DNA of 64,000 nucleotides from an uncultured bacterium (GTDB taxonomy: Bacteria; Bacillota_I; Bacilli_A; RFN20; CAG-826), in assembly GCA_949297805.1 (NCBI GenBank), contig CASFTG010000001.1:806001-870000 (forward strand), read 5' to 3'. Shown piece after piece: positions 29,218 through 39,090 of this stretch. The translations under genes were made by a program, and so were the position numbers. The notes beneath the pieces are model-generated. The model did not search any database. It saw only the letters and a program-made list of their open reading frames with translations, and had not been told where the DNA came from. Position 1 is the stretch's first letter. Every line of letters begins with the position of its first letter.

Positions 29218-30017
29218 ACGAACGGGAACTCTCCTTCCTTTTCGCCCAAGCCAAAGACGAGGAAAAGCCCGTTCTTTTAAAAGGCGGAACCTCCAATCAA
29301 ATATACGGGACCAGTAAGCATATCTATCGTTATAAGACCCCTTACCCCATCGATTTCCTCGATACTACAGAGAAAGAAAGAATCGCCATCGCCAGAGGCC
29401 TGAATTGCCCCATCCTCCCTAAAGTCTTCTATTTTTCCAAAGAAGGAAACAAAGTCGAGCAACGGCTTATTGGCACGGTAAAGGAAAAGTTCGGCCCGGA
29501 TGATATCCAAGCCGTCGCCATTTCGATCAAACAACTTCATCAATGCCCCCTCATCGGCATTGAGTTTGATTTGGCCAAACGGATCAGCTTTTACCATGCC
29601 CAGGCCGGGGATATCCCCGAGATCGAAGACGAGATCAGCCGGCAATACCAAATAAAGGCTATCCAGGAAATCGAATCCTATCCTAGGGTCTATTCCCATA
29701 ATGACCTCTGGGCTGGGAATATCCTCTTCAACGCGGGCAAGGCTTATTTCCTGGATTTGGAATTTGCCGCCGACGCGCCCGATATCCTCGATTACCTATC
29801 CTTTGTCGAAGAAAACGACATCGACCTTCGTTTCGATTTCGGACCGGCCAGCAAGGAAAAGACCTTAGCTCTAAGTTATTGTCTTGATATCTTATGGGCC
29901 TATTGGGCCAAAGCCCGTTACCTTCAAGGCTGTAAAGCCGGGAAGGCGATAATGGAAAGCAAAATCGCTCGGTTCCAAAAAGGCCAAGCGATTATCGATT
30001 CTTATCTGCGGGGCTAA
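29214..30017 (+). CDS. Aminoglycoside phosphotransferase/choline kinase-fold small-molecule kinase
   Basis: A 267-residue kinase-like protein with the catalytic loop SHNDLWAGNIL (H-N-D-x-x-x-x-N, near 172-182) and the metal-binding FLDLEFA after it, as in LicA-type choline kinases, thiamine kinases and aminoglycoside phosphotransferases. The N-terminal lobe begins with KGGTSNQIYG. The likely substrate is choline, ethanolamine, thiamine or another metabolite; resistance is not implied. It is coupled to rqcH by ATGA. Its last 26 bp overlap the 3' end of the convergent ATPase gene. Confidence 0.75.
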   Translation: MNERELSFLFAQAKDEEKPVLLKGGTSNQIYGTSKHIYRYKTPYPIDFLDTTEKERIAIARGLNCPILPKVFYFSKEGNKVEQRLIGTVKEKFGPDDIQAVAISIKQLHQCPLIGIEFDLAKRISFYHAQAGDIPEIEDEISRQYQIKAIQEIESYPRVYSHNDLWAGNILFNAGKAYFLDLEFAADAPDILDYLSFVEENDIDLRFDFGPASKEKTLALSYCLDILWAYWAKARYLQGCKAGKAIMESKIARFQKGQAIIDSYLRG

Positions 30018-31437
30018 CCAAGTTCACCCAAAAAGGCAAGATCCGATATAGGAAAGGCAATAGATAAGCCGGCAGGCTGAAGAGATTATCAATATAGCCG
30101 ACATTCCGGAAACCTGAGCGGATAGCCCAAGCTTTCGAATTCTGCGCCATCATTTCCGGCAGCGATTTGCTTTTCTTATTGACCGAGCTCTTGATCTCCA
30201 ACAAGACAACCCGGTTTTCATAGGCGAAGACGAAATCAATCTCCAGCCCTTTGGGGTTGGAATAATAATGGAGGTTATCGAATAAGTGGTTTAAAACGGT
30301 GGCTGCCCCATTTTCATAAATCGGCCCTTTGCCCATATGGTTCTCCCCCGGGGCTAAGGCAAAAGCGGAGTCCAAGCCGGACAAGGCGAAGAAAAGGCCA
30401 TTGTCGGCGACGTAAAGCTTCTCGGAATCAGTCCGTTCAAAGACTTTGAGGGGGATATCGCAACGAGTCAGGTTATCGGCATGGATGACCATCCCCGAAT
30501 CCTTCAGATAGTCGAGTGAGGATTCATAGTCCCGAGCTTTGGCGTTCTTATCAATGTCAGAATAGAAAAACCGGGTCCGTTCCTTGGCGATGGCGCGCGG
30601 CAATGACTCCAAAACCATCCGAGCCCTCCGCCCAACTAAGGATGAGGCGTATTTGCCTAAATCGTTCTCTAGCGAAGAAAGCAGGTTCCGGGCCACCGCG
30701 TAAATCGAGGCCGGATCGAATTTGGGCTGCCCTAAATAAAAGGAGACGACTTCCGGCATTCCCCCGACTAGGAGGAACTCCCGATAGAGGTTCGAAAGCT
30801 CCTCGTGGACCGAAGAGGGTAACGGGCGGAGAGAACAAGCGTTATTGATCAGGTTTTGGATGAAGGAATCCTCATATCCCCTAGCCCACATGAACTCCTC
30901 GAAATCCAGCGGATGCATCCGGCGGGAATCCAAATAACCAACTGGGAAACTACGGGCTTTCTTCAAGGCCACCCCAACCAAGGACCCAGAGGCGATGACG
31001 GTAAGGTAAGGCTGATAAGTAAGATACTTCAAAGCATCGATCCCTTGCCCCTCCTGGCTATCTTGAATCTCATCGAGGGCGAGGATTATCCGATTGTCGA
31101 CCCTCGGCTGAAGGTCAAGGGAACGGAATTCCGGCAGCAAAGAAAGCGATTGGAGGAACGAATCCGGTAGAAGGCTGGACCTAAAGATGTCCCTTATCTC
31201 CTTCCGCGAGTGAAAATCGAGATAAAGCGCGATGGCGGAGAACCCAGTTCCTTTGTAAGTAGCGAAGGGCTGGGAAAGATCATTTTCTTTGAAGCCCAAG
31301 GCTCGCCGGATAGAATAGGTTTTGCCGATTTGCCGCATACCGTCGATCAGCAGGCATTTATGGATGCCCTTAGCCTCCCGGGAGGGGGCTTCGTCGATGA
31401 ATCGGCGGATATTGTCTTCGATTTTCCGTTTGATCAT
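29992..31437 (-). CDS. AAA_14/DUF4143 ATPase (copy 3)
   Basis: A 481-residue AAA_14 plus DUF4143 protein: Walker A GMRQIGKT at 33-40, Walker B ILALDEIQD at 118-126, then ASGSLVGVALKK, MHPLDFEEFMWARG and LVGGMPEVV, with the C-terminal LEIDFVFAYE...LLEIKSS nuclease-like pattern. The C-terminus runs past the usual family end and overlaps the kinase gene at 29214-30017 tail to tail. The ATG has no Shine-Dalgarno sequence; TGCTATGAT (extended -10, 31444-31449) lies 6 nt upstream, so the mRNA is probably leaderless. A 32-bp degenerate repeat block is just upstream. Confidence 0.87.
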   Translation of the reverse strand: MIKRKIEDNIRRFIDEAPSREAKGIHKCLLIDGMRQIGKTYSIRRALGFKENDLSQPFATYKGTGFSAIALYLDFHSRKEIRDIFRSSLLPDSFLQSLSLLPEFRSLDLQPRVDNRIILALDEIQDSQEGQGIDALKYLTYQPYLTVIASGSLVGVALKKARSFPVGYLDSRRMHPLDFEEFMWARGYEDSFIQNLINNACSLRPLPSSVHEELSNLYREFLLVGGMPEVVSFYLGQPKFDPASIYAVARNLLSSLENDLGKYASSLVGRRARMVLESLPRAIAKERTRFFYSDIDKNAKARDYESSLDYLKDSGMVIHADNLTRCDIPLKVFERTDSEKLYVADNGLFFALSGLDSAFALAPGENHMGKGPIYENGAATVLNHLFDNLHYYSNPKGLEIDFVFAYENRVVLLEIKSSVNKKSKSLPEMMAQNSKAWAIRSGFRNVGYIDNLFSLPAYLLPFLYRILPFWVNLVSPADKNR

Positions 31438-34157: not shown

Positions 34158-34186
34158 AAAAAGCGGCTAAAGTTCCACCGCTTTTT
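34158..34186 (-). terminator. Terminator of the aldo/keto reductase gene
   Basis: AAAAAGCGG (34158-34166) pairs with CCGCTTTTT (34178-34186); the T run on the minus strand runs into the promoter of the ATP-grasp gene. Confidence 0.8.
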
Positions 34187-35255
34187 ATTCGTGGGCCTTC
34201 GTCAATAGATCGCGGATTGGCAAATGCTGGGGGCACATTGATTCGCAGGCCCCGCAGGCGAGGCACTCAGCCGATTTATTCGATAAGGAAACATCGATCT
34301 TTTTCCCGTTGACCTTTGCTTCGTTAAGGGCGGCGAAGATATCGGGGATCGGCATCTTGACCGGGCAGACGGCTTCGCAATACTCGCAATGGGTGCATTC
34401 GATTAAGCCCTCGGTCCGTAGATAGGAACGGGCTTTGGCGATGACCGCTTGCTCCTTTTCTCTTAAAGGAAGGAAATCCCTCATGGTTGCGATGTTATCT
34501 TCCATCTGGGAAGTGTCGCTCATGCCGGAAAGAACCATTTTGACGTCAGGGAAGGAGGCGGCATAGCGAATGGCGAAAGAGGCCGGGGAAGCCGAGGATA
34601 ACGATTTGAATAAAGAGACGACCGGGGCGCTGACTTTGGCGAGCCGTCCACCCTTAACCGGTTCCATGACGATGACCGGGAGACCATGCTTCTCCGCCAC
34701 TTTATAGCAGTCCAAACTCTGCACGTTCGGATCGTCCTCATCTAAGTAATTCAATTGAAGCTGGACAATTTCGATCTCCGGATGCTCAGTCAAGATCTTA
34801 TCAAGGAACTCGGGGGTATCGTGGAAGGAAATGCCGATATGACGGATCTTGCCCTTCTCCTTCATCTTCTCCGCCACCTCATAGGCGTGACAATCCAGGT
34901 AATGCTGATAATTGTTTTGGCCTTGGGCATGCATAAGGTAGAAGTCGAAATAGGAAACTCCGCACCAAGCGAGCTGGGTGTCAAGCATCGGCTCTATGTC
35001 CTCTTCCTTATTGAAGTAATTGGACGAGAGCTTATCGGTTAAAACATAAGCCTCCCGGGGATAACGGGAGGTCAGAGCCTCTTTGACCGCCCTCTCGCTC
35101 TTCTCGTTGATGTATCCGTGGGCGGTGTCGAAATAATTGAATCCCGCCGCCATGAAAGCATCGACCATCTTTTTGGTCTGCTCGATATCGATGTCTTCGC
35201 CGTTCATCGGCAGGCGCATCATTCCAAAGCCTAATTTTTTCTTGATTCGGTCCAT
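34185..35255 (-). CDS. Aldo/keto reductase with C-terminal 4Fe-4S domain
   Basis: NAD(P)H-dependent reductase fused to a ferredoxin-like domain. The 356 residues have the AKR barrel with GFGMMRLP at the start, catalytic Asp/Tyr in FDTAHGY, Lys in VLTDKLS and His in YLMHAQG, and a C-terminal pair of cluster motifs CTHCEYCEAVCP and CLACGACESMCP. The fusion is common in anaerobes and suggests ferredoxin-linked electron transfer. A TTG at 35273 is in frame, but the ATG at 35255 gives the standard N-terminus; no Shine-Dalgarno sequence precedes either, and a weak AACAAT box 6 nt upstream fits a leaderless start. Confidence 0.9.
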   Translation of the reverse strand: MDRIKKKLGFGMMRLPMNGEDIDIEQTKKMVDAFMAAGFNYFDTAHGYINEKSERAVKEALTSRYPREAYVLTDKLSSNYFNKEEDIEPMLDTQLAWCGVSYFDFYLMHAQGQNNYQHYLDCHAYEVAEKMKEKGKIRHIGISFHDTPEFLDKILTEHPEIEIVQLQLNYLDEDDPNVQSLDCYKVAEKHGLPVIVMEPVKGGRLAKVSAPVVSLFKSLSSASPASFAIRYAASFPDVKMVLSGMSDTSQMEDNIATMRDFLPLREKEQAVIAKARSYLRTEGLIECTHCEYCEAVCPVKMPIPDIFAALNEAKVNGKKIDVSLSNKSAECLACGACESMCPQHLPIRDLLTKAHE

Positions 35256-35303
35256 GGGCTTATTGTTCGCCAATTAGAACGGAAAAGAAAGGCTTAATTC
35301 GCG

Positions 35304-35415
35304 TTAGGCATATTCGAGGAAAGCCGCGGCAAAAACGTCTTTAGGGGATATTAGCTTTGATCGAAAGATTTTTGATAACGGCTTTCAATTAAGCTAAATT
35401 GTTCCACTTTTTCAT
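35304..35415 (-). pseudogene. Remnant of AbiEii-type toxin (nucleotidyltransferase), 5' end only
   Basis: An ATG overlaps the AbiEi stop codon as ATGA, with GGAGGT 7 nt upstream, exactly as in intact abiEi-abiEii pairs. The frame reads MKKWNNLA, then a TAA, then LKAVIKNLSIKANIP, then a frameshift, then KDVFAAAFLEYA and a stop. Ignoring the breaks, this resembles the N-terminus of AbiEii/DUF1814 toxins (LKxxIKNxSxxxNIxxxxVxxxFxxE). Everything after about 37 residues, including the nucleotidyltransferase active site, is gone. Confidence 0.6.
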
Positions 35416-35999
35416 AGCAGCACCTCCAAATATGGCAAAAGGCGTTTCTCAACATGAAGTTTCTTGGCATAATCCAATAGTTTTGGAATATCGCGGGAAG
35501 AGTAACTGACATACTCCTTAATTGCTGGTATAACAGTATCGGGAGAAGTGTTGTTCCGTCGGAATAGATCGCAAATAGTCCTTTCCAAATCATGAATCCG
35601 AATTGGGTTCCCGAACGGTGAACGAACATAGATAACGCCTAACCGGTAAAACTCTGGGCGTTCCCTAATAACCCGAACGGTCGAATCGACGGAGAGCGAA
35701 TCAGCATGATAACCAGCTGGAAAAGTCATAGTAAAACGGGACGGCACGCCTCGGCCAAAGCCCAGTAAAAACAACGAGGTTTCATGAGAGAAAATCCCTT
35801 TCGAATAACGCTTTTGAAGCAAAAAGAATTCATCGTCGAATTCATCGCTTTTGGTATAAATACCTCGGGCATATTTTTCGTAAAAACCAGACTTTTCCCA
35901 AACCGAAAGAATATAGGGGCTTAGCCCCGCGTCTTTCAAATCGATAGGCGACAAAGCCGCTTGCCAAGGTCGAACTTTAGCCAGTTCCCTTTTTGTCAT
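35412..35999 (-). CDS. abiEi: AbiEi-type antitoxin / winged-helix regulator (orphan)
   Basis: The antitoxin and repressor half of a type IV AbiE toxin-antitoxin or abortive-infection pair. The 195 residues have an N-terminal winged helix (LKDAGLSPYILSVWEKSGFYEKYARGIY), the SHETSLFLLGF segment, TMTFPAGYH, and the C-terminal IHDLERTICDLFRRNN motif of AbiEi proteins. The ATG at 35999 is preferred over a TTG at 36035. Its toxin partner is only a remnant, so it is an orphan. Base composition is more AT-rich than its neighbours, suggesting transfer. TATAAA about 20 nt upstream of the ATG is a possible -10 box. Confidence 0.8.
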   Translation of the reverse strand: MTKRELAKVRPWQAALSPIDLKDAGLSPYILSVWEKSGFYEKYARGIYTKSDEFDDEFFLLQKRYSKGIFSHETSLFLLGFGRGVPSRFTMTFPAGYHADSLSVDSTVRVIRERPEFYRLGVIYVRSPFGNPIRIHDLERTICDLFRRNNTSPDTVIPAIKEYVSYSSRDIPKLLDYAKKLHVEKRLLPYLEVLL

Positions 36000-36207
36000 G
36001 GGTTTTAAGCCTTTTTTAATATTTATACGCAGCAAAGCCCTCTTTTTTAGTTCAGCACACGCTTTTTAAGTTTTTGTAGTTCGTTTGTGAAATCCTTGTT
36101 TATTAATCGCATATTTCCGATTAACACTATCTTAATAAACCAAAATTCCATTTGCAATAGGTCCGGGTCTCGGCCTACGCAATAGGCATATTGAATCCGG
36201 TAATTTT
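36000..36207. other. AT-rich non-coding stretch between abiEi and the 23-bp array
   Basis: No open frame of note. It holds the likely abiEi promoter region, one isolated copy of the array core (GATTAACACTATC at about 36119-36132) and two GCAATAGG copies about 25 bp apart, which suggests an older, decayed extension of the repeats. Confidence 0.5.
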
Positions 36208-36367
36208 GCTTAGCAATCTCGAGGCAATACGATTAACACTATCGTGGTATTCAACCGGACACTTGTGTGGCGTTTTGCTTAACACTTTCGTGGCAATTTA
36301 GTTAACACTTTCGCGGTACTCCACCGGACACTCTTGCGGTATTTCACCGGACACTTTTGCGGGGTCA
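36208..36367. repeat. Array of seven 23-bp repeats
   Basis: The pentamer ACACT recurs at exactly 23-bp steps (36236, 36259, 36282, 36305, 36328, 36351), with a degenerate first unit ending its core at 36217. Units come in two types, TTAACACTxTCGxGG and CCGGACACTxTTGCGG. No gene lies inside. Sets of end-proximal repeats of this kind are known from IS21-family transposons, so it may be the remnant of an element end; no transposase is present. Confidence 0.75.
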
Positions 36368-36397: not shown

Positions 36398-36434
36398 CAA
36401 AAAGCCCATCGCCTGCTTATAAGACAATGGGCTG
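36398..36434 (-). terminator. Terminator of the atp operon
   Basis: AGCCCAT (36403-36409) pairs with ATGGGCT (36427-36433); TTTTT follows on the minus strand. It lies 8 nt after the atpC stop. Confidence 0.85.
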
Positions 36435-36440
36435 GAATTA

Positions 36441-39090
<2,650 letters not shown>

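Follow-up and report, generated by a model that had tools for sequence, protein, structure and literature searches.

An orphan AbiEi antitoxin gene beside the remnant of an AbiEii toxin gene in an uncultured bacterium

We found that an open AbiEi antitoxin gene in the genome of an uncultured bacterium (G000) is directly followed by the remains of a decayed AbiEii toxin gene. The locus lies in a 64,000-nucleotide stretch of DNA, the whole of which was analysed and is called the window here. In the reading that we consider likely, it is a former AbiE operon whose toxin was cut down before the split from a sister species and whose antitoxin is now a relic that stays open by chance. The ancestral state, in which we infer that the pair worked, would have been an AbiE (type IV) operon, with AbiEi followed by an AbiEii nucleotidyltransferase across a 4-nucleotide overlap. 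The toxin gene would then have been reduced to its first ~40 codons and have gained two stops and a frameshift, of which at least the frameshift and the last stop would have arisen before the split from the sister genome G024. The antitoxin would have stayed open in G000 and been lost from the sister, and the orphan AbiEi would now have no selected role, being open only since neutral decay has yet to reach it.

The open antitoxin frame and the truncated toxin

The AbiEi gene and the toxin remnant sit on the minus strand between an aldo/keto reductase gene and a gene that we take to be atpC from its position behind atpD (Table 1). The window gene is a full-length AbiEi, because it matches the PADLOC AbiEi model PDLC02225 (E 3.7e-52), because a profile built from it and 27 relatives finds the solved structures 6y8q (AbiEi of S. 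agalactiae, 7.2e-61) and 9hlo (AbiGI, 2.2e-61), and because the fold predicted by AlphaFold2 (mean pLDDT 90.4) matches 6y8q in Foldseek with a TM of 0.83. It scores 180 bits against our own profile from 64 relatives, and a search against Pfam and NCBIfam gave zero matches at E ≤ 1. The ATG at 35999 (195 aa) is a more likely start than the TTG.

Table 1. Features of the orphan AbiEi locus, its neighbours and its counterparts in related genomes.
Feature	Position	Strand	Basis or remarks
Aldo/keto reductase with 4Fe-4S domain	34185-35273	-	Conserved neighbour, opposite side from atpC
AbiEii toxin remnant	35285-35415	-	ATG, codon-9 TAA, frameshift after codon 24, shifted-frame TAA, truncated
Part of the remnant also present in G024	35290-35383	-	5 differences in 94; frameshift and last TAA identical
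Stretch missing from G024 (toxin start, AbiEi, part of repeat array)	35384-36272	-	Site comparison
ATGA overlap, antitoxin stop and toxin start	35412-35415	-	Sequence
AbiEi antitoxin, open frame	35412-36035	-	TTG start at 36035, 207 aa; PADLOC, profile, AlphaFold2, Foldseek
Degenerate array of ~23-bp repeats (..AAGTGTCCGG.. / ..AAGTGTTAA..)	36204-36362	-	Relatives of the array at the equivalent site in G024 and G030
Terminator-like hairpin after atpC	36403-36433	-	1 found vs 0.6 expected in shuffles
atpC	36441-36842	-	Conserved neighbour, guide to the equivalent site in relatives
Toxin-less AbiEi ORFs	L236-L250, L016; e.g. L014:1480-2058	-	Divergent from an rplM motif; strand is that of the L014 example

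The AbiEi gene ends in ...CTATGA, and, read base by base, the ATG at 35415 has ATGA in common with the AbiEi TGA, which gives the locus the antitoxin–toxin bicistronic order and the 4-nucleotide overlap of an AbiE system. The ATG frame of the remnant meets a TAA at codon 9 (35391-35389) and another at codon 25 (35343-35341), and after the frameshift the similarity continues in the next frame, which has its TAA at 35306-35304. The original prediction had read the overlap, the premature TAA, the frameshift, the likeness to AbiEii N-termini and an intact AbiEi from the letters of this DNA, and we found all of them, the AbiEi being intact as a full-length open frame whose fold is the right one. 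It had also placed the cut-off after ~37 residues; the truncation stands, and the similarity runs ~7 residues further.

For these comparisons, we built a toxin profile from 67 AbiEii N-termini that follow related AbiEi genes. Over profile positions 3-24, the ATG frame scored 8.4 bits. None of 2000 dinucleotide shuffles reached this best-frame score, and none reached the 10.3 bits of the two best frames added together; when the window was cut into 133-nt tiles at 40-base steps on both strands, the place of the remnant scored highest. When the search was free, the second frame of the original prediction scored 0.1 bits on its own (profile 17-40), and it was the third frame that supplied the other part of the sum (1.9 bits, profile 29-41). 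The second frame was then scored ungapped at the single profile register that continues from the first piece, where it reached 10.4 bits, a score attained by 0 of 20,000 mononucleotide shuffles and 6 of 127,874 window positions, while 16 other registers gave at most 0.3 bits. Taken only up to the TAA, that is, with the residues first read, the same frame scored 4.4 bits at the fixed register (58 of 20,000 shuffles), so most of the 10.4-bit score needs residues past the last TAA and the similarity extends to ~35285. The exact path after codon 24 is tentative, because a 13-residue third-frame piece also matches the AbiEii profile (13.4 bits at a freely chosen place).

Could the DNA behind AbiEi be plain intergenic DNA that resembles a toxin by chance? 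The match is short, the third frame partly matches as well, and the last piece of the remnant is loosely like the DNA that precedes the next gene in another genome of the genus (G030). We nevertheless hold a chance likeness to be very improbable, since no shuffle reached the first score or the register-fixed second one, the similarity begins exactly at the overlap ATG, and an intact AbiEii stands directly behind AbiEi in 69 of 132 related loci.

The remnant stops after about 37-45 of the ~280 residues of related aligned toxins. It ends upstream of the K-G-G, R, T and D-x-D columns that are invariant in the 13 toxins from which the motif columns were taken (positions 51-71 of the toxin of locus L034) and thus has no catalytic motifs. 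No toxin with such motifs can be made from it, and the full AbiEii/DUF1814 nucleotidyltransferase with KGG and R-x-T-x-D-x-D that stands behind the antitoxin in an AbiE system is absent from the window locus. A search of G000 for a toxin of the window's subfamily found none at E ≤ 1e-20. The locus therefore consists of an open antitoxin with no functional toxin adjoining it and a toxin remnant, that is, an orphan antitoxin. The persistence of the ATG and the overlap would suit a remnant that is still translated, as an 8-residue peptide with a role in, for example, translational coupling; with a stop at codon 9 and a start wholly missing in G024, this is highly improbable.

Age of the lesions and state of the orphan

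Equivalent sites in related genomes, all of them drafts, were located through AtpC, which had a match in 28 of the 31 genomes of the genus, and the site was compared in two of them, G024 and G030. G024 (AtpC 99%) aligns collinearly to both flanks of the locus in the window, with 95% and 90% identity over kilobases. It carries the remnant only from 35383 downward, with a 23-bp repeat array abutting it and no antitoxin, and G030 (AtpC 87%) has neither AbiEi nor toxin at the equivalent site. Since the frameshift and the last TAA are shared with G024, which has no antitoxin, the toxin was probably broken before G000 and G024 split; most simply, G024 would then have lost the antitoxin. Divergence of the shared remnant (5/94) is lower than the four-fold-site average of seven neighbouring genes compared between G000 and G024 (129/1029, K2P 0.14) and falls within the spread of these genes (0.05-0.22). 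If the two sister species exchanged DNA, a younger lesion could look like an old one that they share.

The comparison with G024 also bears on sequencing or assembly error, which the original prediction had named as a possible source of the lesions and under which the toxin would be intact in the living organism. Although G000 is a draft of 11 contigs, the frameshift and the last TAA recur in G024, a separate assembly, and ~240 codons are missing before the next conserved gene. The frameshift, the last TAA and the truncation cannot be errors, and the chance that error explains the locus is negligible; the codon-9 TAA falls outside the part of the remnant kept in G024 and so is not covered by this comparison. 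With the anatomy of the locus, the profile similarity and the lesions common to the sister genome, the original reading of a decayed AbiEii beside an intact AbiEi holds.

Repeat arrays with the core words GTGTCCGG and GTGTTAA stand at the equivalent place behind atpC in three species (window 36204-36362, L166:5002-5088 and L167:9512-9558), and different gene remains follow each of them. At the G030 site, a C-terminal fragment of a DUF4143 protein lies behind the repeats (L167:8963-9466, minus strand); a full AAA_14/DUF4143 protein is also encoded in the window (29992-31437, minus strand). A search for the origin of the 23-bp repeats did not find one. IS21 ends were considered as a source and not confirmed: G000 and G024 have no IS21 matches, and the genus's IS21 matches, all scoring below the curated cut-off, lie in 17 loci, none of which contains the repeat words searched for.

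Does the open antitoxin frame indicate selection? We simulated neutral change over half the four-fold-site divergence (t = 0.07; 5000 runs, indels ignored), and the AbiEi frame stayed free of nonsense changes in 31% of the runs, a share that was 11% at t = 0.14. Because ~31% of neutral frames remain without nonsense changes, openness is no evidence of selection, and that argument was rejected. The protein may well still be a working one, because it retains 23 of the 28 columns conserved at ≥85% in 64 toxin-paired relatives, which is within the range of these relatives (18-23 columns in the seven lowest). By the rule that we used, there is no sigma-70-like promoter upstream of the gene on its strand, and the same rule finds such a site within 180 nt upstream in 45 of 63 toxin-paired relatives; the lack of a consensus promoter carries little weight. 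In the tree, the window row has a long end branch (1.34 vs a median of 0.19), which we did not take as a sign of relaxed constraint, as some lone toxin-paired rows are as long.

The original prediction had pointed to the rest of the genome for another AbiEii, and Pfam's model finds only one other in G000 (C1:404349-404909). It is of a different subfamily and adjoins its own AbiEi, the best PADLOC models of which differ from those of the orphan. Between the two AbiEi proteins there is no significant similarity, the best BLASTP piece matching at 12/32 residues (E 0.055). Anti-addiction against the genome's own second AbiEii was rejected as unsupported, as that toxin is of another subfamily and has an AbiEi of its own. 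The second pair is intact (L001:1228-2857, C1 near 404000). G030 has a single AbiEii match, similar in score and frame length to the second AbiEii of G000, and G024 has three AbiEii matches.

The alternative with most in its favour is that the orphan is under selection, either because it binds DNA as an autoregulated regulator or because, as an anti-addiction factor, it neutralises incoming AbiEii toxins of its own subfamily. The full-length frame is open and has the AbiEi fold; incoming toxins are plausible because the family has pairs of the same subfamily (intact in 19 of the 52 loci examined), as do viral contigs (intact in 23 of 36); and other genomes of the genus conserve an AbiEi clade that has no toxin. 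On the other hand, the sister species lacks the gene, the window copy is outside that clade, the frame would be open by chance in nearly a third of cases, no promoter-like site precedes it, and it is unlike the AbiEi of the genome's other AbiE. We regard selection on the orphan as unlikely. The original suggestion that such an orphan persists as a regulator or an anti-addiction factor is thus not upheld for the window copy; a relic is most likely, because of the neutral openness, the absence of a promoter-like site and a second AbiE that is of another subfamily, and a function is less likely.

Toxins beside related AbiEi genes

Loci that carry a related AbiEi numbered 136: the family supplied 56 (including the window's own) and named genomes 80. 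We relocated the AbiEi in 132 of them (missed: L012, L013, L019 and L030). Behind AbiEi, 69 of the 132 loci had an intact AbiEii, 25 a broken one and 27 none, 8 were cut by contig ends, and 3 others were dropped. Flags for a broken toxin numbered 33 of 132 at first and 28 once stops at the very ends of alignments were ignored; the removal of L004 (the hit was another AbiEii further on), L134 (antitoxin mislocated) and L068 (a run of N) left 25. The window locus (L002) is counted among the 27 with none, its remnant being too short for the full-length profile, and loci of the rplM-linked clade described below are there too. The toxin is thus broken in 25 of the 94 loci with a detectable toxin, a count in which many rows are near-copies and not independent events.

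Most of the broken loci (19 of 25) came from named genomes, and 8 of these 19 are titled isolates, not MAGs (L064, L083, L093, L121, L127, L128, L132 and L137). In L121 and L132, only about the last third of the toxin stands directly behind AbiEi, as if the start and the middle had been deleted. The 25 broken loci were marked on a tree of 106 AbiEi proteins, where this label required 23 changes, at least 21 of them forced by well-supported branches. Shuffling the labels gave a count as low in 356 of 500 cases, so the broken loci are not clustered beyond chance. Because mending is unlikely, the broken toxins are mostly separate breakages.

The search from the antitoxin side favours readable antitoxins, which builds in part of the asymmetry, and a small count from the toxin side served as a check. 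Of the 42 toxin matches listed, 30 loci were examined, and an AbiEi that was intact by one fixed rule was found in all 29 with room upstream, the remaining one lying at a contig end; those counted as intact include the antitoxins of L231-L233, which align only from profile position 31 or 33, and that of L230, which has a stop within the first residues of the alignment. The toxins themselves were broken or short in 5 of the 30 (L222, L224, L229, L230 and L232). Stops were found in 3 of 94 AbiEi matches among those listed. Fisher tests gave p = 0.001 and 6e-6, values that are loose because of relatedness among the rows and overlap between the sets. Viral contigs look similar: 36 loci, with near-copies among them, comprised 23 intact, 4 broken, 6 none and 3 cut. 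By these counts, the toxin breaks before the antitoxin, as expected; broken toxins beside antitoxins that are still open fit the expectation if losing the antitoxin first is harmful.

Solitary AbiEi proteins and known systems

The weaker AbiEi hits in the genus proved to be a single toxin-less group. We searched all 31 genomes of the genus and found it in 15, and it also occurs in G181 of another genus. All 16 genes begin on the strand opposite a motif of L13, 170-202 nt upstream, and a YebC motif lies on the other side in 10 of the 16, within the stretches examined; from these sequences, we take the neighbours to be rplM (L13) and the YebC gene. None of the 16 stretches has a match to the AbiEii profile. 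The 16 proteins form one clade (100/100) that excludes the window row. Among the ten lowest-pN pairs of 120, dN/dS was 0.06-0.19 (computable for 9 of the 10), with dS near saturation. The one member tried lies above the Pfam AbiEi_4 cut-off, and the two members tried match PADLOC AbiEi models. A TATAAT-like box with short inverted arms was seen by eye just before the start of many of these genes.

The rplM-linked clade may well represent a solitary AbiEi that has been domesticated, as a candidate regulator. G000, G024 and G030 are without it, no match having been found in the stretches around their rplM, and the window AbiEi is outside the clade and is not divergent from rplM. The clade is like the window copy in being an AbiEi-family protein without AbiEii, and it differs in that its members group together, have low dN/dS and occupy a fixed site. 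Thus, the idea of a regulator or an anti-addiction factor may hold elsewhere in the genus. A literature search for AbiEi with rplM or as a solitary antitoxin, which left most subscription papers uncovered, found no paper.

The AbiE system of S. agalactiae, as described by Dy et al. 2014 (PMC3985639), has two genes that overlap by 4 nt with the antitoxin gene first, and the window locus resembles it in AbiEi fold, gene order and overlap. In contrast, the window toxin is a ~40-codon remnant without catalytic motifs. PMC3985639 and PMC8436566 present AbiEi as a transcriptional regulator, and PMC3985639 reports no antitoxin–toxin binding for S. agalactiae AbiE. For MenA3, phosphorylation of the toxin is described as the antitoxin's action (PMC11375011, in the passages concerned); how AbiEi-type antitoxins act is unsettled. 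In Mesorhizobium huakuii, AbiEi is reported as a regulator needed for nodulation (PMC8436566), and this proposed role beyond the toxin is of the kind considered for the orphan AbiEi. The M. huakuii protein, however, is described as belonging to an AbiE toxin–antitoxin system.

Orphan antitoxins have been discussed as remains of degraded toxin–antitoxin systems, as regulators or as anti-addiction modules (passages of PMC7192599 and PMC7354431). The degraded-system orphans of the Klebsiella pneumoniae complex (Horesh et al. 2020, PMC7192599) and those of mycoplasmas, which include an AbiE-like pair (PMC8562856), are, in the accounts given there, antitoxins without a toxin at a former toxin–antitoxin locus, as in the window. 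Unlike those orphans as described in the same passages, the window orphan has a remnant that is still readable and a sister genome that helps date the decay.

A broader reading is that AbiE modules keep giving rise to AbiEi proteins without a toxin, since the toxin breaks first and often and the AbiEi gene stays open; that at least once in this genus such a protein was permanently recruited as a solitary regulator divergent from rplM; and that the window gene is at an early stage of this path, a working AbiEi guarding against incoming AbiEii or regulating other genes. We regard this reading, taken as a whole, as decidedly doubtful. The window locus is a real but ordinary relic and, taken alone, is one more decayed toxin–antitoxin pair of a kind already known. 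Its relatives supply the numbers, namely toxins broken in roughly a quarter of the loci that have a detectable one, scattered over the tree beside antitoxins that are open, and the conserved solitary AbiEi beside rplM makes a toxin-free role of AbiEi directly testable.
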